A stretch of DNA of 64,000 nucleotides, taken from NCBI GenBank assembly GCA_025463305.1, contig JAOBWK010000021.1, forward strand, positions 1 to 64,000, in the 5' to 3' direction. This stretch comes from Ilumatobacteraceae bacterium. GTDB taxonomy: Bacteria; Actinomycetota; Acidimicrobiia; Acidimicrobiales; Ilumatobacteraceae. The stretch's first letter is position 1. Each line of letters starts with the position of its first letter. Both the position numbers and the translations under genes were made by a program. Below are positions 21,528 to 45,258 of the stretch, piece by piece. The notes under the pieces were generated by a model, which worked only from the letters and a program-made list of their open reading frames with translations, had not been told where the DNA came from and made no database searches.

Positions 21528-22930
21528 GCACGCCGTCGCTGCCGAACCGACTGGGTCCACGAGTCGTGATCGCCGGCACGAACTCGGGCGTCGGCAAGAC
21601 CACGGTGGCGACCGGGATCATGGCGGCGATGCGCCGACGCGGGACACGGGTCGCTCCGGCGAAGGTCGGGCCCGACTTCATCGATCCGGGCTACCACGCG
21701 CTGGCGTGCGGGCGGCCGGGTCGCAACCTCGACGCGTGGATGAGTGGCCCGGAGCTGATCCCGGCGCTCGCTGCCCGGGCCGGACTCGATGCCGAGGTGC
21801 TCGTCGTCGAGGGCGTGATGGGCCTGTTCGACGGCGCCGCCGACGGCACGCTGTCGTCGACGGCCGACATCGCCCACCTCATCGACGCGCCGGTGATCCT
21901 GGTCGTCGACTGCTCGGCCCAGGCCGGCTCGGTCGCGGCCGTCGTGCACGGGTTCGCGACCTTCGATCCCCGAGTGCGCGTCGCCGGCGTGGTCCTCAAC
22001 CGGTTGGCCTCGGCGGGTCACGAGTCGATGGTGCGCGACGCGCTTTCTGCGTCGACCGTTGGCGTCCCGGTGGTCGGCGCACTGCACCGCGATGAGCGTC
22101 TCTCGTGGCGTGATCGGCACCTCGGGTTGATCCCGGTGGCCGAGCAGCCCGAGGCGATCGGCCGCTCGCTCGACCTGCTGGCCGAGCTGATCCTCGCGAG
22201 CTGCGACCTCGACGCGATCGAGGCCATCGCCCGCACCGCCGAACCGATGGCCGTCGACGTCTTGCTCCCCAGGGCCCAGCCCGTGGTGTGCGCCGACGGC
22301 CGCCGACCGCGTATCGCCGTCGCAGCGGGACGGGCGTTCACGTTCTCGTATCCCGACAACGTCGAGGCGCTGATCGCCGCGGGCGCCGAGATCGTCGAGC
22401 TCGACCCGTTGCTGGATCCGCACCTGCCGGAGGGCATCGACGGGCTCGTCATCGGCGGCGGGTTCCCGGAGGTGATGGTCGATCAGCTGGCCGGCAACAC
22501 GACGTTGCTGACGGACGTCCGCGAGCGGATCGCCGGCGGGCTCGTGACGTGGGCGGAGTGCGGGGGCCTGCTGTGGTTGGCGGCGTCGCTCGACGGGCGG
22601 TCGCTCGCCGGTGTCGTGCACACCAGCGCCGTCATGACCAAGCGGTTGACGCTCGGCTACCGGACCGCCGAGACGCTCGTGCCGACGCCCTTCGGCCCGT
22701 CCGGGGTGAGCCTGCGCGGCCACGAGTTCCACTACTCCGAGACGACGCCGTCCGGCGAGGCGCTCCACCTCACGGGTCGCAACGGCGAGGGCGTGGCCGG
22801 GTTCGCGACGCCGACGCTGCTGGCCAGCTACCTCCACGTGCACCTCGCGGCCCGGCCCGATCTCGCGGCCGCCTTCGTGGCGTGCGCGGCGGGTTCCCGG
22901 GTGGTGGTGGCAGCGTCCGGCCCGACGTAG
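21524..22930 (+). CDS. cobB: (hydrogeno)cobyrinic acid a,c-diamide synthase
   Basis: A 468-residue glutamine-dependent amidotransferase that amidates the a and c side chains of the corrin ring. The N-terminal ATPase half has GTNSGVGKTTVATG and KVGPDFIDPGYH. EGVMGLFDG lies in the middle, and the C-terminal class I glutaminase domain carries nucleophile Cys346 in WAECGGLLW and RGHEFHYSE. The start is an unusual TTG at 21524 overlapping the cobO stop; no ATG or GTG could begin the protein without cutting the P-loop domain. The TAG stop lies inside the 29-bp palindrome that precedes cobG. Confidence 0.93.
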   Translation: MSTPSLPNRLGPRVVIAGTNSGVGKTTVATGIMAAMRRRGTRVAPAKVGPDFIDPGYHALACGRPGRNLDAWMSGPELIPALAARAGLDAEVLVVEGVMGLFDGAADGTLSSTADIAHLIDAPVILVVDCSAQAGSVAAVVHGFATFDPRVRVAGVVLNRLASAGHESMVRDALSASTVGVPVVGALHRDERLSWRDRHLGLIPVAEQPEAIGRSLDLLAELILASCDLDAIEAIARTAEPMAVDVLLPRAQPVVCADGRRPRIAVAAGRAFTFSYPDNVEALIAAGAEIVELDPLLDPHLPEGIDGLVIGGGFPEVMVDQLAGNTTLLTDVRERIAGGLVTWAECGGLLWLAASLDGRSLAGVVHTSAVMTKRLTLGYRTAETLVPTPFGPSGVSLRGHEFHYSETTPSGEALHLTGRNGEGVAGFATPTLLASYLHVHLAARPDLAAAFVACAAGSRVVVAASGPT

Positions 22931-22950
22931 GGCAGGCTGCCCTACGTCGG
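22922..22950. promoter_or_regulatory. perfect 29-bp palindrome before cobG carrying two CGTAGGGCA half-sites
   Basis: Two 14-bp arms (22922-22935 and 22937-22950) are exact reverse complements around one central base. Each arm contains CGTAGGGCA, and the same half-site recurs twice in direct orientation at 45204-45224, next to the gene for a ribbon-helix-helix fusion protein. A further 5-bp pair (22915-22919 with 22951-22955) can lengthen the stem. It could be an operator for cobG-H-I-J, or an RNA hairpin limiting read-through from cobB. The arm contains the cobB stop codon. No T-run follows. Confidence 0.6.
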
Positions 22951-22976
22951 CGGACATCCGCTATCGTCCGTTGGCA

Positions 22977-24092
22977 ATGCCCGCCGCCGTCGAACTCCGC
23001 TCCCGGCGCACGGGTCTCTGCCCCACCTTCGACGCCCCATCGGCGCAGCGCGACGGTCTGCTGTTCCGGGTGCCGTTGGTCGGTGCACGGTTGTCGATCG
23101 ACCAGCTCCTCGTGCTCGCGGCTGTCGCGGAACGCCACGGCAACGGTGTCGTCGAGCTCACCAACCGGGGCAACGTCCAACTGCGCGGCGTCGCAATGGA
23201 TGGTGCGGCCGAGGTGGCCGACGCGCTGGCGGCGGCAGGTCTCGGCGACGACCTCGCCCGTGTCGTCACGATCGCCCCGTTCGCGACAAGCGACGCGTGG
23301 GCGCTGCGCGATGCGGTGTGCGCCGCGCTCGGCACGCTCGACCTCACCGGTCTGTCCGGCAAGTTCGTCGTCCACATCGCAGGAGCCGACGGCCCGGTCG
23401 GCGGTGGATCGCTCGCCGATGTGGCGTTGAAGATCGGCGCCGGCTCGTCGGTCGTGGTGGACCTCGGAGGCGAGCGATACGCGGCCGATGCCGGCGTTGC
23501 GGTCTCCGCCGTGACGGCGACCGCGCTCACCTGCATCGCCGCCGGACCGGACGCGCGCCGCAAGGACGTGGTGGTCCGCCTGGCGCTGCCTCGCCTGCCA
23601 TCCGACGCAGCCGTCGATGTCGCACCGGCGCCCGTCGGCGTGGTCCGCCACGGCGCCGACACGTCGATCGTCGGCGGCATCGTCCTGGGGCGCACGGACC
23701 CGGCTCAGCTCCGCACCATCGCCGCGCTGTGCACCCGGCACGGCGTCACCGAGGTCGGCGTCACGCCGTGGCGATCGCTGGTCCTGCCGGCCGCAGGGAA
23801 CCCGGATGCCATGCTCGCCGAGCTCGCTGCGCTGGGCCTCATCGTCGACGCATCGCACCCGGCGAGCGGCGTCGTCGCCTGCATCGGTCGTGCGGGCTGC
23901 TGGCAGACGGAGCTCGACACGTTGGCCGAGGCCGACGCCGTCATCGCCGGTCGGCGCGACCTCGGCCGCGCCGCCACCGTCCACGTCAGCGGATGCGCCA
24001 AGTCGTGCGCCTCGCACTCGCCGGTCGACGTCACCCTGATGGGCCGCGACGACTCGTCCGGCTTCGACGTCGTCCGCGGGGCGCGGCCGTGA
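22977..24092 (+). CDS. cobG: precorrin-3B synthase
   Basis: A 371-residue monooxygenase of the sulfite/nitrite reductase superfamily that uses O2 to convert precorrin-3A to precorrin-3B, the step that marks the aerobic cobalamin pathway. ELTNRGNVQLRG lies near residue 60. A 4Fe-4S/heme-type ligand set is visible as C302-x5-C308 and C340-x3-C344 (ACIGRAGCWQ and SGCAKSCASH). ATG 22977 is the first reasonable start; the ribosome site is weak. Its stop overlaps cobH by GTGA. The palindrome at 22922-22950 lies 26 nt upstream, so this may be the first gene of a separately controlled sub-operon. Confidence 0.9.
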   Translation: MPAAVELRSRRTGLCPTFDAPSAQRDGLLFRVPLVGARLSIDQLLVLAAVAERHGNGVVELTNRGNVQLRGVAMDGAAEVADALAAAGLGDDLARVVTIAPFATSDAWALRDAVCAALGTLDLTGLSGKFVVHIAGADGPVGGGSLADVALKIGAGSSVVVDLGGERYAADAGVAVSAVTATALTCIAAGPDARRKDVVVRLALPRLPSDAAVDVAPAPVGVVRHGADTSIVGGIVLGRTDPAQLRTIAALCTRHGVTEVGVTPWRSLVLPAAGNPDAMLAELAALGLIVDASHPASGVVACIGRAGCWQTELDTLAEADAVIAGRRDLGRAATVHVSGCAKSCASHSPVDVTLMGRDDSSGFDVVRGARP

Positions 24093-24727
24093 CGATCAGC
24101 GGCTACGACTACGTGCGCGACGGCGCCGAGATCTATCGACGCTCCTTCGCCACCATCCGCGCCGAGGCGGACCTCACCGCGTTCCCGATCGACGCCCATT
24201 CGTTGGTGGTCCGGATGATCCACGGCAGTGGGATGGTCGACCTCGCCGCCGACGTCCGGATGAGCCACGACATCGTCGGCGCGGCGCGTGGCGCGCTCGC
24301 GTCGGGCTGCACGATCCTCGCCGATGCGCGCATGGTGGCCGACGGCGTCACCCGCTCCCGCCTGCCCGCCGACAACCCCGTCGTGTGCACGCTCGCCGAC
24401 GAGGGCGTCGCCGACCTCGCGGTGCGCCTCGGCACCACGCGTTCGGCCGCGGCGATGGACCTGTGGGGCGATCGTCTGCACGGTGCCGTGGTCGTCATCG
24501 GCAACGCGCCGACCGCACTGTTCCGCCTGCTCGAGATGATCGACGCCGGTGCGCCGCGCCCGGCCGCGATCGTCGGCATCCCGGTCGGCTTCGTCGGGGC
24601 TGCAGAGTCCAAGCAGGCGCTCATCGACCATCCCGCCGGCGTCCCCTACGTCACCGTGGTCGGCCGGCGGGGCGGCAGCGCGATCGCCGCGTCCGCGCTC
24701 AACGCCCTGGCCTGCGAGCGCGAGTGA
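24089..24727 (+). CDS. cobH: precorrin-8X methylmutase
   Basis: A 212-residue isomerase that moves the C-11 methyl group to C-12 to form hydrogenobyrinic acid. Typical segments are GAEIYRRSFATIRAE, the catalytic-histidine motif VVRMIHGSGMVD, the region GCTILADARMVADGV, and VVIGNAPTALFRLLE with GIPVGFVGAAESK. The GTG start at 24089 overlaps the cobG stop by 4 nt and the stop overlaps the cobI start by 4 nt. The protein should act in the cytoplasm late in ring construction, after CobL. Confidence 0.95.
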   Translation: MTISGYDYVRDGAEIYRRSFATIRAEADLTAFPIDAHSLVVRMIHGSGMVDLAADVRMSHDIVGAARGALASGCTILADARMVADGVTRSRLPADNPVVCTLADEGVADLAVRLGTTRSAAAMDLWGDRLHGAVVVIGNAPTALFRLLEMIDAGAPRPAAIVGIPVGFVGAAESKQALIDHPAGVPYVTVVGRRGGSAIAASALNALACERE

Positions 24728-25476
24728 CCGTGCCACCGCAAACCGTGATCCCGGGAACCCTGTACGGCGTCGGCGTCGGCCCCGGCGATCCGGAGCTGAT
24801 GACGCTCAAGGCCGCGCGCCGCATCGGCGCGGCGCCGGTCGTCGCCTACTTCGCGGCGCGCAACCGACCGAGCAACGCCCGCCGCATCGCCGCCGAGCTG
24901 ATCACCCCAGATCATCGCGAGCTGCTGTTCGAGTACCCCGTCACCACCGAGCACCTCGGACCCGAGCAGTCGTACGAGGAACTGCTGCTGCGCTGCTACG
25001 ACGAGTCGGCCGAGCGGGTCGAGGCCGAGTTGCGGGCGGGCCACGACGTCGCGGTGCTGTGCGAGGGCGATCCGCTGTTCTACGGCTCGTACATGTACAT
25101 CCACAACCGCCTCGCCGACCGCTTCACGACGCGGGTCGTGCCCGGCATCTCGTCGCTCACCGCAGGCGCCGCCGCCATCGCCCGCCCACTCGCCTGTGGC
25201 GACGAGCTGCTCAGCGTGCTGTCCGGGGTGATGACGGTGGAGGACCTCAAACAGGCGCTCGTCGCGTGCGACGCGGCGGTCATCATCAAGCTCGGCCGCA
25301 ACCTCACCAAGGTGCGCAGCGTGATCGAGACCGTGGGGCTGATCGACCGGGCGTGGTACGTGGAGCGGGCGTCGCACGAGGTCGAGGTCTGCTGCCCGCT
25401 CGCCGAAGCCGACGCGGCGAAGGCTCCCTACTTCTCGATGATCGTGATCCCGAGCGCCGTCGCCGGGCTGCGGTGA
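24724..25476 (+). CDS. cobI: precorrin-2 C20-methyltransferase
   Basis: A 250-residue SAM-dependent tetrapyrrole methylase. The family's N-terminal VGVGPGDPELMTLKAARR, the EGDPLFYGSYMYIH motif, VVPGISSLTAGAAA and IIKLGRNLTKVRSV identify CobI rather than other corrin methylases. These segments closely resemble the CobI half of the mycobacterial CobIJ fusion as I remember it. Start GTG 24724 and the stop each overlap the neighbours by 4 nt. A second, C20-methyltransferase-like protein with an extra DNA-binding domain is encoded at 44274-45200. Confidence 0.93.
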   Translation: MTVPPQTVIPGTLYGVGVGPGDPELMTLKAARRIGAAPVVAYFAARNRPSNARRIAAELITPDHRELLFEYPVTTEHLGPEQSYEELLLRCYDESAERVEAELRAGHDVAVLCEGDPLFYGSYMYIHNRLADRFTTRVVPGISSLTAGAAAIARPLACGDELLSVLSGVMTVEDLKQALVACDAAVIIKLGRNLTKVRSVIETVGLIDRAWYVERASHEVEVCCPLAEADAAKAPYFSMIVIPSAVAGLR

Positions 25477-26258
25477 CCGGCAGCGTTCCAGCCGCCGCGG
25501 GAAGCATCACCGTCGTCGGCCTGGGTCCGGGCCGCAGCGACTGGCTGGTGCCGGAGGCGGCAGCCGCCATCGCCGGCGCGACGGATCTGGTCGGCTACCA
25601 GACGTACCTCGACATGGTGCCCGCCGAGTTGCTCGGCGCCCAGGTGGTGCGTGCCTCGGACAACCGCGAGGAGCTCGATCGCGCCGGTGTCGCGCTGCAG
25701 CTCGCCGCCGATGGCCATCGGGTGGCGGTGATCTCATCCGGCGATCCCGGCGTGTTCGCGATGGCGAGCGCCGTCTTCGAGGCACAGTTAGCGCCGACCG
25801 CGCCGCCCGCATGGCGCGACCTCGACGTGGTCGTGCTGCCGGGCGTGACCGCGGCGCTCGCCACCGCGGCGCGCATCGGTGCGCCGCTCGGCCACGACTG
25901 GTGCTGCATGTCGCTGAGCGACAACCTCAAGCCCTGGTCGATCATCGTCAAGCGGCTCACCAACGCGCTCGATGCCGACTTCGCGATCGCGCTGTACAAC
26001 CCGGTGTCCCGGCATCGACCGACGCAGTTGGCGACCGCATTCGACATCGTCCGCGCGCATCGTCAGCCCTCGACGCCGATCGTGCTCGGCCGCGACGTCG
26101 GGCGGCCCGACGAGCGCGTCACGGCCGTGCGCCTCGGCGACCTCGACCTCGGCGTGTGCGACATGCGCACGGTGATCCTCGTCGGCTCGTCCACCACCGA
26201 GATGATCGACGTCGGCGGCCGCACCCGCGTGTACACCCCCCGGTCCTACCCGGCCTGA
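25473..26258 (+). CDS. cobJ: precorrin-3B C17-methyltransferase
   Basis: A 261-residue SAM-dependent methylase that methylates C-17 and promotes ring contraction. It has VVGLGPGRSDWLVPEA, the characteristic LVGYQTYLDMVP, ISSGDPGVFAMASAVFE, WCCMSLSDNLKPW and FAIALYNPVSRHRP, which separate CobJ/CbiH from its paralogues. GTG 25473 overlaps cobI by 4 nt, so the order cobI-cobJ is preserved as separate genes rather than as a fusion. It is the last gene of the + strand run; a weak hairpin follows at 26266-26310. Confidence 0.94.
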   Translation: MTGSVPAAAGSITVVGLGPGRSDWLVPEAAAAIAGATDLVGYQTYLDMVPAELLGAQVVRASDNREELDRAGVALQLAADGHRVAVISSGDPGVFAMASAVFEAQLAPTAPPAWRDLDVVVLPGVTAALATAARIGAPLGHDWCCMSLSDNLKPWSIIVKRLTNALDADFAIALYNPVSRHRPTQLATAFDIVRAHRQPSTPIVLGRDVGRPDERVTAVRLGDLDLGVCDMRTVILVGSSTTEMIDVGGRTRVYTPRSYPA

Positions 26259-32512: not shown

Positions 32513-32550
32513 CCGGGAGAGCGTAGGCGGCGGTGGGCCACGGCGGGATA

Positions 32551-32708
32551 GGGTGACGCCACGTCCAGGGAACATCGGTGTGAATCCGAGGCTGTACCCG
32601 CAACTGTCACCGGGGAGCGAACCTCCAACGCGATCGGTCACGGCCTCTCGGGGCTGGAAGGCCGGAGGCGAGCATCGATCCGTGAGCCAGGACACCTGCG
32701 TCGTGATC
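32551..32708 (+). ncRNA. cobalamin (B12) riboswitch
   Basis: The leader contains the conserved core of the AdoCbl riboswitch in order: AGGGAA (32568-32573), GGTGTGAATCC, GCTGTACCCGCAACTGT, and the B12-box-like GAGCCAGGACACCTGC near the 3' end (32684-32699). These are the most diagnostic sequences of the class. A TAGGGT -10-like hexamer at 32549 could start the transcript close to 32561. About 27 nt separate the aptamer from the ATG at 32736, whose GGGAG ribosome site could be hidden in the ligand-bound form. It should lower expression of the FhuF-like gene, cobN, the chelatase gene and cobQ when cobalamin is plentiful. The ends are approximate. Confidence 0.93.
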
Positions 32709-32735
32709 CGAGCAACCTCGACCGGGAGCAGTCAC

Positions 32736-41982: not shown

Positions 41983-42318
41983 TCAGCCGGCCGCCACCAC
42001 GGCGACGCACACCGTCTCGCTGCACCGCTTCGGCACGAGCAGCACGCCGTCGGGGGCGCGCAGCCGAGCGGCGGGCCCGGCGACATCTCGGCCGGTGAAC
42101 GCGTCGACCGGGAGGTGGACGACGGGCCAGGGCAGCCCGGCGAGCGCCGGGTGACCGCGACGGTGCTCGATCGTGGCGATCTCGACGATGTCGTCACGAT
42201 GGCGCTCGGCGACGGCCAGCGCGACGTCGATCAGGCCGAGGACATCGGCCGTCGTCGCCCGAGCGTTGAGCCCGATGCCGACCACCACTGCGGTCGGACC
42301 GTGCGCCGGTTCAGCCAC
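41983..42318 (-). CDS. cobE: cobalamin biosynthesis protein CobE (CbiG C-terminal domain)
   Basis: A 111-residue protein matching the stand-alone CbiG C-terminal/CobE domain: VGIGLNARATTADVLGLI near the N-terminus, THEH-like IEHRRGHPALAG in the middle, and ETVCVAVVAAG at the end. CobE is needed in the aerobic pathway but its exact activity is not settled. The GTG start at 42318 overlaps the end of cobL by 8 nt, so it is the last gene of the unit fusion-methylase, cobM, cobL, cobE. It converges on the sugar transferase gene with a 6-nt gap. Confidence 0.8.
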   Translation of the reverse strand: MAEPAHGPTAVVVGIGLNARATTADVLGLIDVALAVAERHRDDIVEIATIEHRRGHPALAGLPWPVVHLPVDAFTGRDVAGPAARLRAPDGVLLVPKRCSETVCVAVVAAG

Positions 42319-43504
42319 CCGGTCCCCACGTCACGAAGACGGGGTTCTGGGCCTCCAACCGCACGCCGTCGGCGATGGCCTGGCCGCGCGACACGCTGAG
42401 CTGCACCATGTTGCCGAGGCGCCGCCACGACTCGCTCGCCCGGTCGACGATCACGTGGGTGGCGACGACCGTGCCATCGGTGCCGAGGCGGGCGAGGCAG
42501 GCATCGAGCACCTCGATCCCCCCGCCACCGATGAACACGCGATCGGGCGTCGGCAGGTCGGCCAGGGCGTCGGGTGCGGACCCGGTGACCACCGTGACGG
42601 ACACGCCGTGGGTGCGGGCGTTGTCGCGGATCCGCTCGGCATCGACCGCGTCGCGCTCGACGGCGAAGACGCGCAGTCGCGGCCGCAACCGGGCGCATTC
42701 GATCGCGACCGAGCCGCTGCCGGCACCGATGTCCCAGAGCACCCCGGTGACGGGTAGGTCGAGCTTGCCGAGCGCGACGGCACGCACCTCGGACTTGGTG
42801 ATCATCCCGTTGCGATGGGCGAACTCGTGCTCGGGCAGTCCCCACGACAGCGACGGCGCCTCGGGGGCCGAGGCGGTGGGATCGAGGAACACCACGATCG
42901 ACATCGGATCGAACGTGCCCGCGGCGAGGCCGGCGAGGTCGGTGTGCACGACGTTCTCGTCCGGCTCGCCGAGCCGGGTCGCCACCACGACGTCGCGCGG
43001 CGCGCACTGCGCATCGACGAGCCGCTGACCGAGCGACTGCGGCGGAGACAGGGGCGCGGTCAGCACCGCGACCTTGGCGTGGTCGACGACGGCCGCGATC
43101 GCCGTGTCGGACGGTCGGCCGTGGGCGGAGATGACGACGGCGTCGTCCCACGTCGCACCGATGCGCGCGAACGCGAGCGACACCGACGACGGTGCCGGGT
43201 GCACGTCGAGCGCCCTCCGCCCGAACCGCTCAGCGAGCAACCGGACGATGCCGAAGAACCCCGGATCGCCGCTCGAGATCACGGCCACGTCGCGGCCGGC
43301 AGCGAGGTGGGCGCCGATCTGGTCGAGCACGCCGTGCAGACCACCGGCCATCTCGATGACCGGCCGCCCGGCCACGTCGACGAACCGGAGGTGACGGGTG
43401 CTGCCGACGATCACCGCGGCGTCGCGCACGGCGCGTCGTGCCGGCTCGCCGTAGCACTCGCCGCCGTGCGACCCGACGACCGTGATGCGCGACGACGTGC
43501 TCAT
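42311..43504 (-). CDS. cobL: precorrin-6Y C5,15-methyltransferase (decarboxylating)
   Basis: A 397-residue two-domain enzyme. The N-terminal CbiE-like tetrapyrrole methylase (about 1-200) has VVGSHGGECYG, ISSGDPGFFGI and ISAHGRPSD. The C-terminal CbiT-like methylase (about 215-390) has MITKSEVRAVAL, WDIGAGSGSVAIE and IGGGGIEVLDACL. It adds methyl groups at C-5 and C-15 and decarboxylates the acetate side chain at C-12. ATG 43504 overlaps the cobM stop by 4 nt. The fused form is typical of the aerobic pathway. Confidence 0.95.
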   Translation of the reverse strand: MSTSSRITVVGSHGGECYGEPARRAVRDAAVIVGSTRHLRFVDVAGRPVIEMAGGLHGVLDQIGAHLAAGRDVAVISSGDPGFFGIVRLLAERFGRRALDVHPAPSSVSLAFARIGATWDDAVVISAHGRPSDTAIAAVVDHAKVAVLTAPLSPPQSLGQRLVDAQCAPRDVVVATRLGEPDENVVHTDLAGLAAGTFDPMSIVVFLDPTASAPEAPSLSWGLPEHEFAHRNGMITKSEVRAVALGKLDLPVTGVLWDIGAGSGSVAIECARLRPRLRVFAVERDAVDAERIRDNARTHGVSVTVVTGSAPDALADLPTPDRVFIGGGGIEVLDACLARLGTDGTVVATHVIVDRASESWRRLGNMVQLSVSRGQAIADGVRLEAQNPVFVTWGPGG

Positions 43505-44277
43505 CCGTCGATCGCCGTGCGATGGCTGTGGGTGAAAGCCGGATCATAGACATGGCTTCGCCCAGCCGCAGCGGGGCGTGCCGAGGCGAGCGCGTCGCCG
43601 ACCAGCACGAGCGCGCTCATCGTGATGCCGTGGGCGACGAGCTCGGCGGCGATCTGTCCGACCGTGGTGGTGATCAGCTGCTCGTCGGGCCAGCTCACCC
43701 GGTGGGCGATGACGGCGGGCGTGTCGGCCGTGTAGGCAGACCCTGGCGCGAGCAGTTGCGTCTGCAAGGAAGTGGGATCTCCGGCCGACAGGAACAGCGC
43801 CATGACCGTGCCCAGCGCCGTCATCGCGGCGAAGTCGTCGCCGGCGCCGAGTGACGCCACGGTGCGTCGGGCCAGCCGGGTGAGGATGACGGACTGGGAG
43901 ATGCCGGGGACGGTCAGCTCGGCGGCGACAGCGGCGGCGGCTGCAGACACCGACGAGACGCCGGGGACGACTTCGAAGCAGCGCTCCTCGGCGACGCACC
44001 AGGCGATCTGCTCGTTGATCGAGCTGTAGATCGAGGGATCGCCGGAGTGCAGGCGCACGATGGCTGCGTCGGGATGGCGCTCGAAGACGGCCGTCACCTG
44101 CTCGAGGGTCATCGACTTGGTGTCGTGCAGCTCGGCGTCGGGCCGGCAGTGGGCGAGCACCTCGGACGACACCAGCGAGCCGGCCCACAACACGATGTCG
44201 GCGGACGCGAGGCGCTGCACGGCGCGCAGGGTGAGCAGATCGGCCGCGCCGGGGCCGGCGCCGACGAACGAGATCAC
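43501..44277 (-). CDS. cobM: precorrin-4 C11-methyltransferase
   Basis: A 258-residue SAM-dependent methylase. Visible signatures are VGAGPGAADLLTLRAVQRL, LWAGSLVSSEVLAHC, VRLHSGDPSIYSSINEQI, and VVPGVSSVSAAAAAV, which fit CobM/CbiF. The GTG start at 44277 overlaps the end of the ribbon-helix-helix/methyltransferase fusion gene by 4 nt, and its own stop overlaps cobL by 4 nt. It therefore depends on the promoter in front of the fusion gene at about 45200. Confidence 0.95.
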   Translation of the reverse strand: MISFVGAGPGAADLLTLRAVQRLASADIVLWAGSLVSSEVLAHCRPDAELHDTKSMTLEQVTAVFERHPDAAIVRLHSGDPSIYSSINEQIAWCVAEERCFEVVPGVSSVSAAAAAVAAELTVPGISQSVILTRLARRTVASLGAGDDFAAMTALGTVMALFLSAGDPTSLQTQLLAPGSAYTADTPAVIAHRVSWPDEQLITTTVGQIAAELVAHGITMSALVLVGDALASARPAAAGRSHVYDPAFTHSHRTAIDG

Positions 44278-45200
44278 GCCGGTGCTCCGGTGCGGTGGTG
44301 GGCGGACGTGGATCCGGTCGCCGGCGCCGGCGCGACGAGGCAGGCGAGGTAGCTGGCCGGATCGTCGGCGAACTCGGTGGCTGCTGCGATGCGCTCGCCC
44401 GGCATGCCGAGCAGCTCGCCGACCACCGCGCCGTCGGCGCGGTCGGCGGCGACCAGCCGGGCGACGATGCCCGGCACGCTGCGCCCGCCCCGGTACAGCA
44501 CGAGGGTCTCGTCGCCGCGGGCCACGGTGTCGGCGATGACCTCGGCGTGCTCGGATGCGTCTCGGCCGACGGCGACGATGCGCACGCTGCCTCCCTCGTC
44601 GGCGATGACCACGTCGGACCGAGCGGCGAGCTCCTGGAACGCCATGATCCCCGGGACCCGACGCACCGGGACGAGTGGGCGCAGCTCGCGCACCGCGTCG
44701 GCCAGGGCCGGGAAGATCGAGAACATGCCGGGGTCGCCGAGCGTGAGGAAGACGACGATCTCGGCCCGATCGAGGTGGGCGACGATCCGCTCGGCGGCCT
44801 CGGTGATGGACCGATGTCGCTGGGCCGGCTCGTCGACGATGTCGATCGTCAACCGCTCGACCCGGATCGTGCCGGCCGCAGCGCGGGCGATGGCCTCGGC
44901 CCGCCCGATCGCATCGCTGCCGATCGATCCGGCGATCACCCGGTCGGCGCCACGGATCGCCTCGATCGCGCGAGGAGCGACGAGATCGGCGGCACCCGGG
45001 CCCATCCCGATCCCGATCAGGAGCGGACCCTTCGGCTTCGGCGGTTCGTCACGGCGGGGCAGGGTGCCCTGGCGGCTCTGGTCGATCGCGGTCTCGATCG
45101 CCGAACGGATGAAGTCCGCCTCCGATCGTCCGGCGCGCCTGGCCGCCTCGCCGAGGGCCTCCTTCAACGCCTCCGGGAGGTACACCGAGCTCTTCTGCAC
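44274..45200 (-). CDS. ribbon-helix-helix domain fused to a corrin C20-methyltransferase-like protein
   Basis: A 308-residue protein in two parts. Residues 3-41 (KSSVYLPEALKEALGEAARR, then AGRSEADFIRSAIETAID) match a CopG/Arc-type ribbon-helix-helix DNA-binding domain. After a Pro-rich linker, residues 59-300 form a tetrapyrrole methylase with IGIGMGPGAADLVAPRAIE, FLTLGDPGMFSIFPAL, RRVPGIMAFQELAA and LLGMPGERI, closest to CbiL/CobI. A separate CobI is encoded at 24724. GTG 45200 has no ribosome site; two CGTAGGGYA direct repeats begin 4 nt upstream. The gene leads the unit with cobM, cobL and cobE. Autoregulation by a pathway enzyme is inferred. Confidence 0.82.
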   Translation of the reverse strand: MQKSSVYLPEALKEALGEAARRAGRSEADFIRSAIETAIDQSRQGTLPRRDEPPKPKGPLLIGIGMGPGAADLVAPRAIEAIRGADRVIAGSIGSDAIGRAEAIARAAAGTIRVERLTIDIVDEPAQRHRSITEAAERIVAHLDRAEIVVFLTLGDPGMFSIFPALADAVRELRPLVPVRRVPGIMAFQELAARSDVVIADEGGSVRIVAVGRDASEHAEVIADTVARGDETLVLYRGGRSVPGIVARLVAADRADGAVVGELLGMPGERIAAATEFADDPASYLACLVAPAPATGSTSAHHRTGAPA

Positions 45201-45203
45201 GGA

Positions 45204-45224
45204 CGTAGGGTACTGCGTAGGGCA
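45204..45224. promoter_or_regulatory. direct repeat CGTAGGGYA before the fusion methylase gene
   Basis: CGTAGGGTA (45204-45212) and CGTAGGGCA (45216-45224) are repeated 12 bp apart, about one helical turn, in the 58-nt gap between the MFS gene stop and the fusion gene start. The same nine bases form both arms of the palindrome at 22922-22950 before cobG. Ribbon-helix-helix proteins commonly bind pairs of short repeats next to their own start, so this is a candidate operator for the fused DNA-binding domain. Confidence 0.6.
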
Positions 45225-45258
45225 CTTCCGTCGGGAACTGCGACCGACGGTCGACGCC

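Follow-up and report, generated by a model that had tools for sequence, protein, structure and literature searches.

Why should an enzyme of cobalamin biosynthesis carry its own DNA-binding domain, when an ordinary copy of the same enzyme appears to be encoded in the same genome? The question is raised by an ORF (hereafter X; 44274 to 45200, minus strand, 308 amino acids, GTG start) of an Ilumatobacteraceae bacterium (GenBank assembly GCA_025463305.1, contig JAOBWK010000021.1). We call "the window" the whole stretch of 64,000 nucleotides that was analysed (positions 1 to 64,000 of the contig). A first-pass annotation had read X as a ribbon-helix-helix (RHH) domain fused to a corrin methyltransferase in one uninterrupted frame starting at GTG 45200, and had suggested that such a pathway protein could adjust cob transcription.

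The fusion protein and its family

The reading of two domains in a single frame is borne out. The 308 codons are open, and both domains are matched in Pfam over the cut-offs. The RHH DNA-binding domain covers residues 2-43 (45072 to 45197, minus strand), with RHH_1 matched at residues 5-41 (E-value = 1.1e-5, 25.6 bits against a cut-off of 20.5). The CobI/CbiL-like domain covers residues 59-295 (44316 to 45026, minus strand), with TP_methylase (PF00590) matched at residues 61-275 (E-value = 5.1e-29). The GTG start at 45200 is supported as well: P0003-P0005, close homologues, share it, with MQKSS as their first residues, and TACCCT (45207 to 45212), a TAnnnT element, stops 6 nt short of it, spaced as for a leaderless transcript. 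A TAnnnT element just before the start is expected of leaderless actinobacterial transcripts. It should be noted that gene callers misplace starts in this family. P0002, a database copy of X, is annotated as starting 5 residues downstream of the GTG codon (window positions 45200 to 45185), and other sequences gain upstream residues, such as MPYxYPT, from a translated promoter repeat (described below). The residues upstream of the RHH motif fit a loose repeat-as-codons pattern, such as MPYLYPT, in 27 of the 113 sequences having that motif.

A protein search (7997 candidates scored) identified 563 homologues of X with E-value ≤ 1e-3. When the best 120 of these 563, mostly covering about 95% of X, are taken together with X, an RHH-strand motif is found near the N-terminus of 113 of the 121 sequences; four of the eight sequences without it start just inside the motif. 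The RHH-methylase fusion is therefore a conserved family and no chance joining. The residues of the RHH strand are nearly invariant. The same fusion was sought in Acidimicrobiia and is present there, the family being chiefly from this class by record titles. One fused homologue, P0019, belongs by its source name to Aquihabitans daechungensis, a cultured species.

The nearest solved chain to the RHH of X by sequence is the antitoxin VapB26 (PDB 5x3t, E-value = 7.1e-6). Modelled separately (AF2, single sequence, monomer), the RHH domain exhibits helices at residues 10-23 and 27-44, the strand being absent. The top Foldseek matches of this model are RHH proteins (VapB26 first; CopG, CdbA, Arc and others) with a weak best E-value of 0.078. 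The fold search with the whole model spanned the methylase part alone, of which the best match is CbiL (8xj3), indicating a CbiL-like fold. These fold-search matches carry no weight as evidence of function.

Operator-like sites at two cob promoters

X is the first gene of the order X-cobM-cobL-cobE. The start of cobM (43501 to 44277, minus strand; TIGR01465 254.9 bits, just under the cut-off of 259.65) overlaps the stop of X. It is followed by cobL (42311 to 43504, minus strand), with CbiE and CbiT domains (TIGR02467 and TIGR02469, both over cut-off), and by a gene with the CbiG C-terminal domain only (41983 to 42318, minus strand; PF01890, E-value = 1e-7), which we take to be cobE. A second operon on the plus strand, cobG-cobH-cobI-cobJ (22977 to 26258), consists of a cobG-like gene with nitrite/sulfite reductase ferredoxin-like domains (22977 to 24092; PF03460), cobH (24089 to 24727; PF02570), a canonical cobI (24724 to 25476) and cobJ (25473 to 26258; TIGR01466 279.1 bits, over cut-off). 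Cobalamin riboswitches regulate cob genes. The only Rfam gathering-threshold match in the 64-kb window is such a riboswitch 5' of cobN (32544 to 32717, plus strand; RF00174, 83.5 bits), and none is found at X or cobG.

Just 5' of the X start lies a direct repeat, CCCTACG-N5-CCCTACG (45204 to 45222, minus strand), with its copies 12 bp apart. This putative operator overlaps, through its second copy, the TACCCT element, which is the predicted -10 of X. A second putative operator lies 5' of cobG: a perfect palindrome, CGTAGGGCA-GGC-TGCCCTACG (22926 to 22946), built from the same CCCTAC half-sites. If TATCGT (22962 to 22967, plus strand), a candidate from its sequence, is the -10 of cobG, the palindrome is at about -28 to -48. 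The distance from the palindrome end to the TAnnnT element is 16-17 nt in the window and in locus L034 and 7-8 nt in loci L002 and L005, which places the palindrome near the -35 of cobG. CCCTACG alone is not unusual, since the seven copies of the window are reached in 7 of 100 shuffles; a palindrome with up to three mismatches was found once in the window and in 4 of 100 shuffles. Thus the arrangement of the copies is rare, while the copies alone are commonplace.

Relatives were taken from a contig scan (33 relatives, 10 RHH-fused and 23 unfused) and from 395 genomes of the class to which genome G001 belongs. In the latter, 34 genomes had a match at E-value ≤ 1e-20, giving 30 loci, from which 9 further distinct fused loci and 14 unfused ones were obtained (the matches of G035, G388, G296 and G414, having no locus, were left out). 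The duplicates L043-L046, L056, L057 and L060 were dropped before counting. L032, a frame-broken second copy in G006, is kept outside the tree and inside the upstream-site count.

Of the 19 other fused loci, 18 have a CCCTAY repeat in the 150 nt upstream (17 forward, L055 reversed); of the 37 unfused loci, none has one at up to 300 nt from the methylase domain. This comparison overstates independence, because the fused loci are related and well-supported branches provide only one independent contrast. No repeat is recognisable upstream of the remaining fused locus, L053. Over both strands of the 33 relative loci (483 kb), the repeat occurs 10 times overall, once per fused promoter (10/10). It starts 31-58 nt before the start codon in eight fused loci (L009, L047-L052 and L062) and is therefore not tied to one place. 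A strict form of the repeat has 13 sites in the 395 genomes: seven at fused X, one at a VapBC-like pair and five others, four of which are apparently coding. The fifth is a TACCCTACG-form repeat in G416 (L088:1501), downstream of which no RHH or cob gene is obvious. A looser pattern has 32 sites in 31 genomes, of which 17 were placed, the reversed-pattern control also matching many genomes; nine are at fused X and three at VapB-like genes. An RHH start is absent at five looser-pattern sites elsewhere in fused genomes (L038-L042).

The cobG promoters were read in the window, G001, G002, G004 and G005, with G066 left out. The palindrome is also found 5' of cobG in the fused genomes G001, G002 and G005, differing by one outer base in G002 and by one base in G005; in G004, a single repeat is shared by the divergent X and cobG. 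Among the 395 class genomes, only G001 and G002 have the exact 19-base core, GTAGGGCANNNTGCCCTAC, in both cases at cobG. With up to one mismatch, the core is present in 10 of the 395 genomes against about 20 genomes for a reversed-pattern control, so that inexact matches away from cobG are meaningless alone; the placement of these cores was read for G001, G002 and G005 only (L073-L075, L077, L078, L081 and L082 left out). A more relaxed palindrome pattern had matches in 3 of 31 genomes, one of them in G004 (L037). We rejected the palindrome as a terminator of cobB, as it lies between divergent cobG and cobO in L002 and L005, where it might also serve cobO-cobB-X. These conserved operator-like sequences, found in both stretches singled out by the first-pass annotation (45190 to 45240 and 22910 to 22960), support its suggestion that a pathway protein may adjust cob transcription.

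Away from X, the TACCCTACG-form repeat is found at three sites in the 31 genomes, all in unfused genomes: two lie in a duplicated stretch of G012, one in G017. All three are 3-4 nt before VapB-like genes starting VRKTSVYL, which are followed by PIN-domain genes (by Pfam on two, one per genome). The strict scan of the 395 genomes revealed a VapBC-like pair with the same repeat layout in G202. The repeat-bearing pairs are located at L035:2699 and 8742 (duplicated stretch), L036:4442 and L093:1501. The RHH strand K-[ST]-[ST]-[VIL]-Y-[LI] is common to X and the VapB-like proteins preceded by the CCCTAC repeat. No fused X was detected in G012, G017 or G202. As the same repeat precedes free-standing VapB-like genes, the RHH and the operator look like one antitoxin-derived module. 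The simplest reading of these sequences is that the two moved together, presumably from an antitoxin to a methylase. X differs from the VapB antitoxins in that a methylase follows its RHH and in that its neighbours are cobM (downstream) and an MFS transporter gene (upstream), a PIN/VapC toxin gene being absent next to it.

The methylase domain beside a canonical CobI

The separate, ordinary CobI that the first-pass annotation had placed at 24724 is confirmed, with scores over both cut-offs (NF004647, 310.4 bits; TIGR01467, the CobI/CbiL equivalog, 219.5 bits against a cut-off of 163.25). X shares the fold and the family signature of CobI/CbiL (precorrin-2/cobalt-factor-II C20-methyltransferase), but carries the extra RHH and, with 118.8 bits on TIGR01467, stays under the cut-off beside the canonical enzyme. 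The window thus matches the two-copy pattern of 5 of the 17 fused genomes (G001, G002, G004, G005 and G066), where a canonical CobI (206-228 bits) accompanies X (122-160 bits). In 12 of the 17, mostly metagenome assemblies in which absences are soft, the fused protein is the sole match over the TIGR01467 cut-off (167-190 bits; two fused copies in G003), which argues that it is probably the C20-methylase enzyme there. The same annotation had also held X to be dispensable for catalysis in principle. This fits the clade of the window, but probably not those 12 genomes.

In a phylogenetic analysis, the six copies co-resident with a canonical CobI group together in a single clade (97/97). Within it, the window and L001 sit on a long stem and L062 on a long branch (2.23), and the tree carries a long-branch warning for L062 and others. 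A single origin of the fusion is compatible with this tree (p-AU 0.33, no rejection). Two unfused copies from Aquihabitans (L024 and L025) are nested among the fused ones (84/93); judging from this position, they may have lost the RHH domain. Two assemblies, G006 (L006 and L032) and G003 (L003 and L008), each contain two cob clusters and two fused copies. In G006, the frame of one X copy is broken and an internal stop interrupts one cobF. The doubled clusters of G003 and G006 could be strain mixtures.

Three residues fixed in 50 relatives are altered in the X of the window (T75A, P91G and K237R), as is a 98%-conserved site (T162I). Of these positions, only P91 is altered in all six copies of the clade; T75 and K237 are altered only in the window and L001. 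Mean conservation in the window's clade is 0.54 for the RHH and 0.50 for the methylase (RHH better kept in 10 of 15 pairs), against 0.54 and 0.59 in sole-copy genomes (15 of 78 pairs), although the pairs are non-independent and the difference in the window's clade is slight. In this clade, which has a canonical CobI, the methylase part has drifted, and the main role of X is probably regulatory.

One could instead regard the X of the window as a fully active second C20-methylase, an isozyme for example for another metal state, which autoregulates its own operon only while the cobG palindrome is read otherwise. Its glycine-rich loop and GDP methylase motifs are indeed intact, and the fused protein presumably methylates where it is the sole CobI over the cut-off. 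However, the low CobI score of X and its altered T75, P91 and T162 speak against full activity, and the cobG palindrome shares the half-site of the X promoter and stands at cobG of fused genomes, among the genomes read. We consider this isozyme unlikely.

Proposed function of X

The best explanation of the whole, which we consider probable, is that X is a PutA-like autoregulatory (trigger-type) CobI/CbiL protein acting on the CCCTAC sites of both cob operons. As for trigger enzymes, an enzyme-type domain and a DNA-binding domain are joined in one chain. The RHH would bind the CCCTAC repeats 5' of X and the palindrome 5' of cobGHIJ; both the RHH and its operator probably stem from an antitoxin module of the VapBC type. 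With a site over the predicted -10 of X and near the -35 of cobG, X would probably repress both X-cobM-cobL-cobE and cobGHIJ. A methylase dimer would presumably present the pair of RHH domains, and DNA binding would presumably be linked to either SAM/SAH or an early tetrapyrrole, for example precorrin-2. In the order of the pathway, the steps of X-cobM-cobL and of cobGHIJ lie from precorrin-2 onwards. Since both operons encode such steps, feed-forward induction by precorrin-2 appears the likeliest signal. In the lineages with a sole CobI, X would also be the enzyme; in the lineage of the window, it would be drifting into a dedicated regulator of X-cobM-cobL-cobE and cobGHIJ.

The precedent is the trifunctional PutA (proline utilization A), described as an enzyme with an N-terminal RHH that represses its own regulon (PMC5293562). 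The likeness lies in this arrangement and in the autorepression proposed for X. PutA is a flavoenzyme of proline catabolism, whereas X is of the tetrapyrrole-methylase type, its RHH resembles those of antitoxins and its site is another. The catalytic folds of PutA and tetrapyrrole methylases are unrelated.

That X is an activator of one or both operons and no repressor seems quite improbable to us. The position of the palindrome near the -35 of cobG is open to activators too, but the window site at the X promoter overlaps the predicted -10, and VapB antitoxins act as repressors. So does PutA (PMC5293562). We give very little credence to the RHH being a vestigial or purely dimerising antitoxin leftover, with the CCCTAC repeat kept only since its second copy is the -10. 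TACCCT does fit TAnnnT, 6 nt before the start of X in the window; yet two sequences that are no -10 elements, the first copy of the repeat and the palindrome of cobG, are kept as well, the repeat is 31-58 nt upstream in eight fused loci, and the RHH strand is nearly invariant. It is likewise very hard to credit that the CCCTAC sites are bound by another protein, a VapB-type antitoxin of the host, with X as an ordinary enzyme. Other genomes of the set do contain VapBC modules with this repeat, but G012, G017 and G202 are without a detected fused X, and the strict sites of fused genomes are at X and none at VapBC. Substitution by X for a missing CobF (C1 methylase), scarcely conceivable, was rejected: X adjoins cobM and cobL, and the ORFs scanned in the 64-kb window yielded no cobF, but CobF (G002-G007) or CbiD (G001 and G008) is present in 8 of the 8 fused genomes scanned, and X scores 38.4 bits on CobF (TIGR02434, cut-off 195.8) versus 118.8 on CobI/CbiL.

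Returning to X as an autoregulatory protein of both cob operons, we tentatively offer a more specific history, which is possible rather than probable. A methylase would have captured an antitoxin RHH and its operator as a unit, a canonical CobI would have taken over catalysis, and the fused copy would have become a dedicated sensor of precorrin-2 (or SAM/SAH) over the ring-building cob operons, beside the end-product control by B12 riboswitches. The riboswitch is an RNA element, whereas X would act as a protein, on the operons for the corrin ring.

A limited search of the literature, judged by titles and the beginnings of abstracts, found no described counterpart of the RHH-CobI fusion. The present analysis adds the operator-like sites at X and cobG, the link with VapB, and the drift of X beside a canonical CobI. 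The predicted operators being short and defined, the claim is directly testable. If it is true, an enzyme of the pathway would have given rise to a protein that regulates corrin-ring synthesis, possibly by reading an intermediate and not B12, and an operator-repressor module of toxin-antitoxin origin would have been reused in metabolism.
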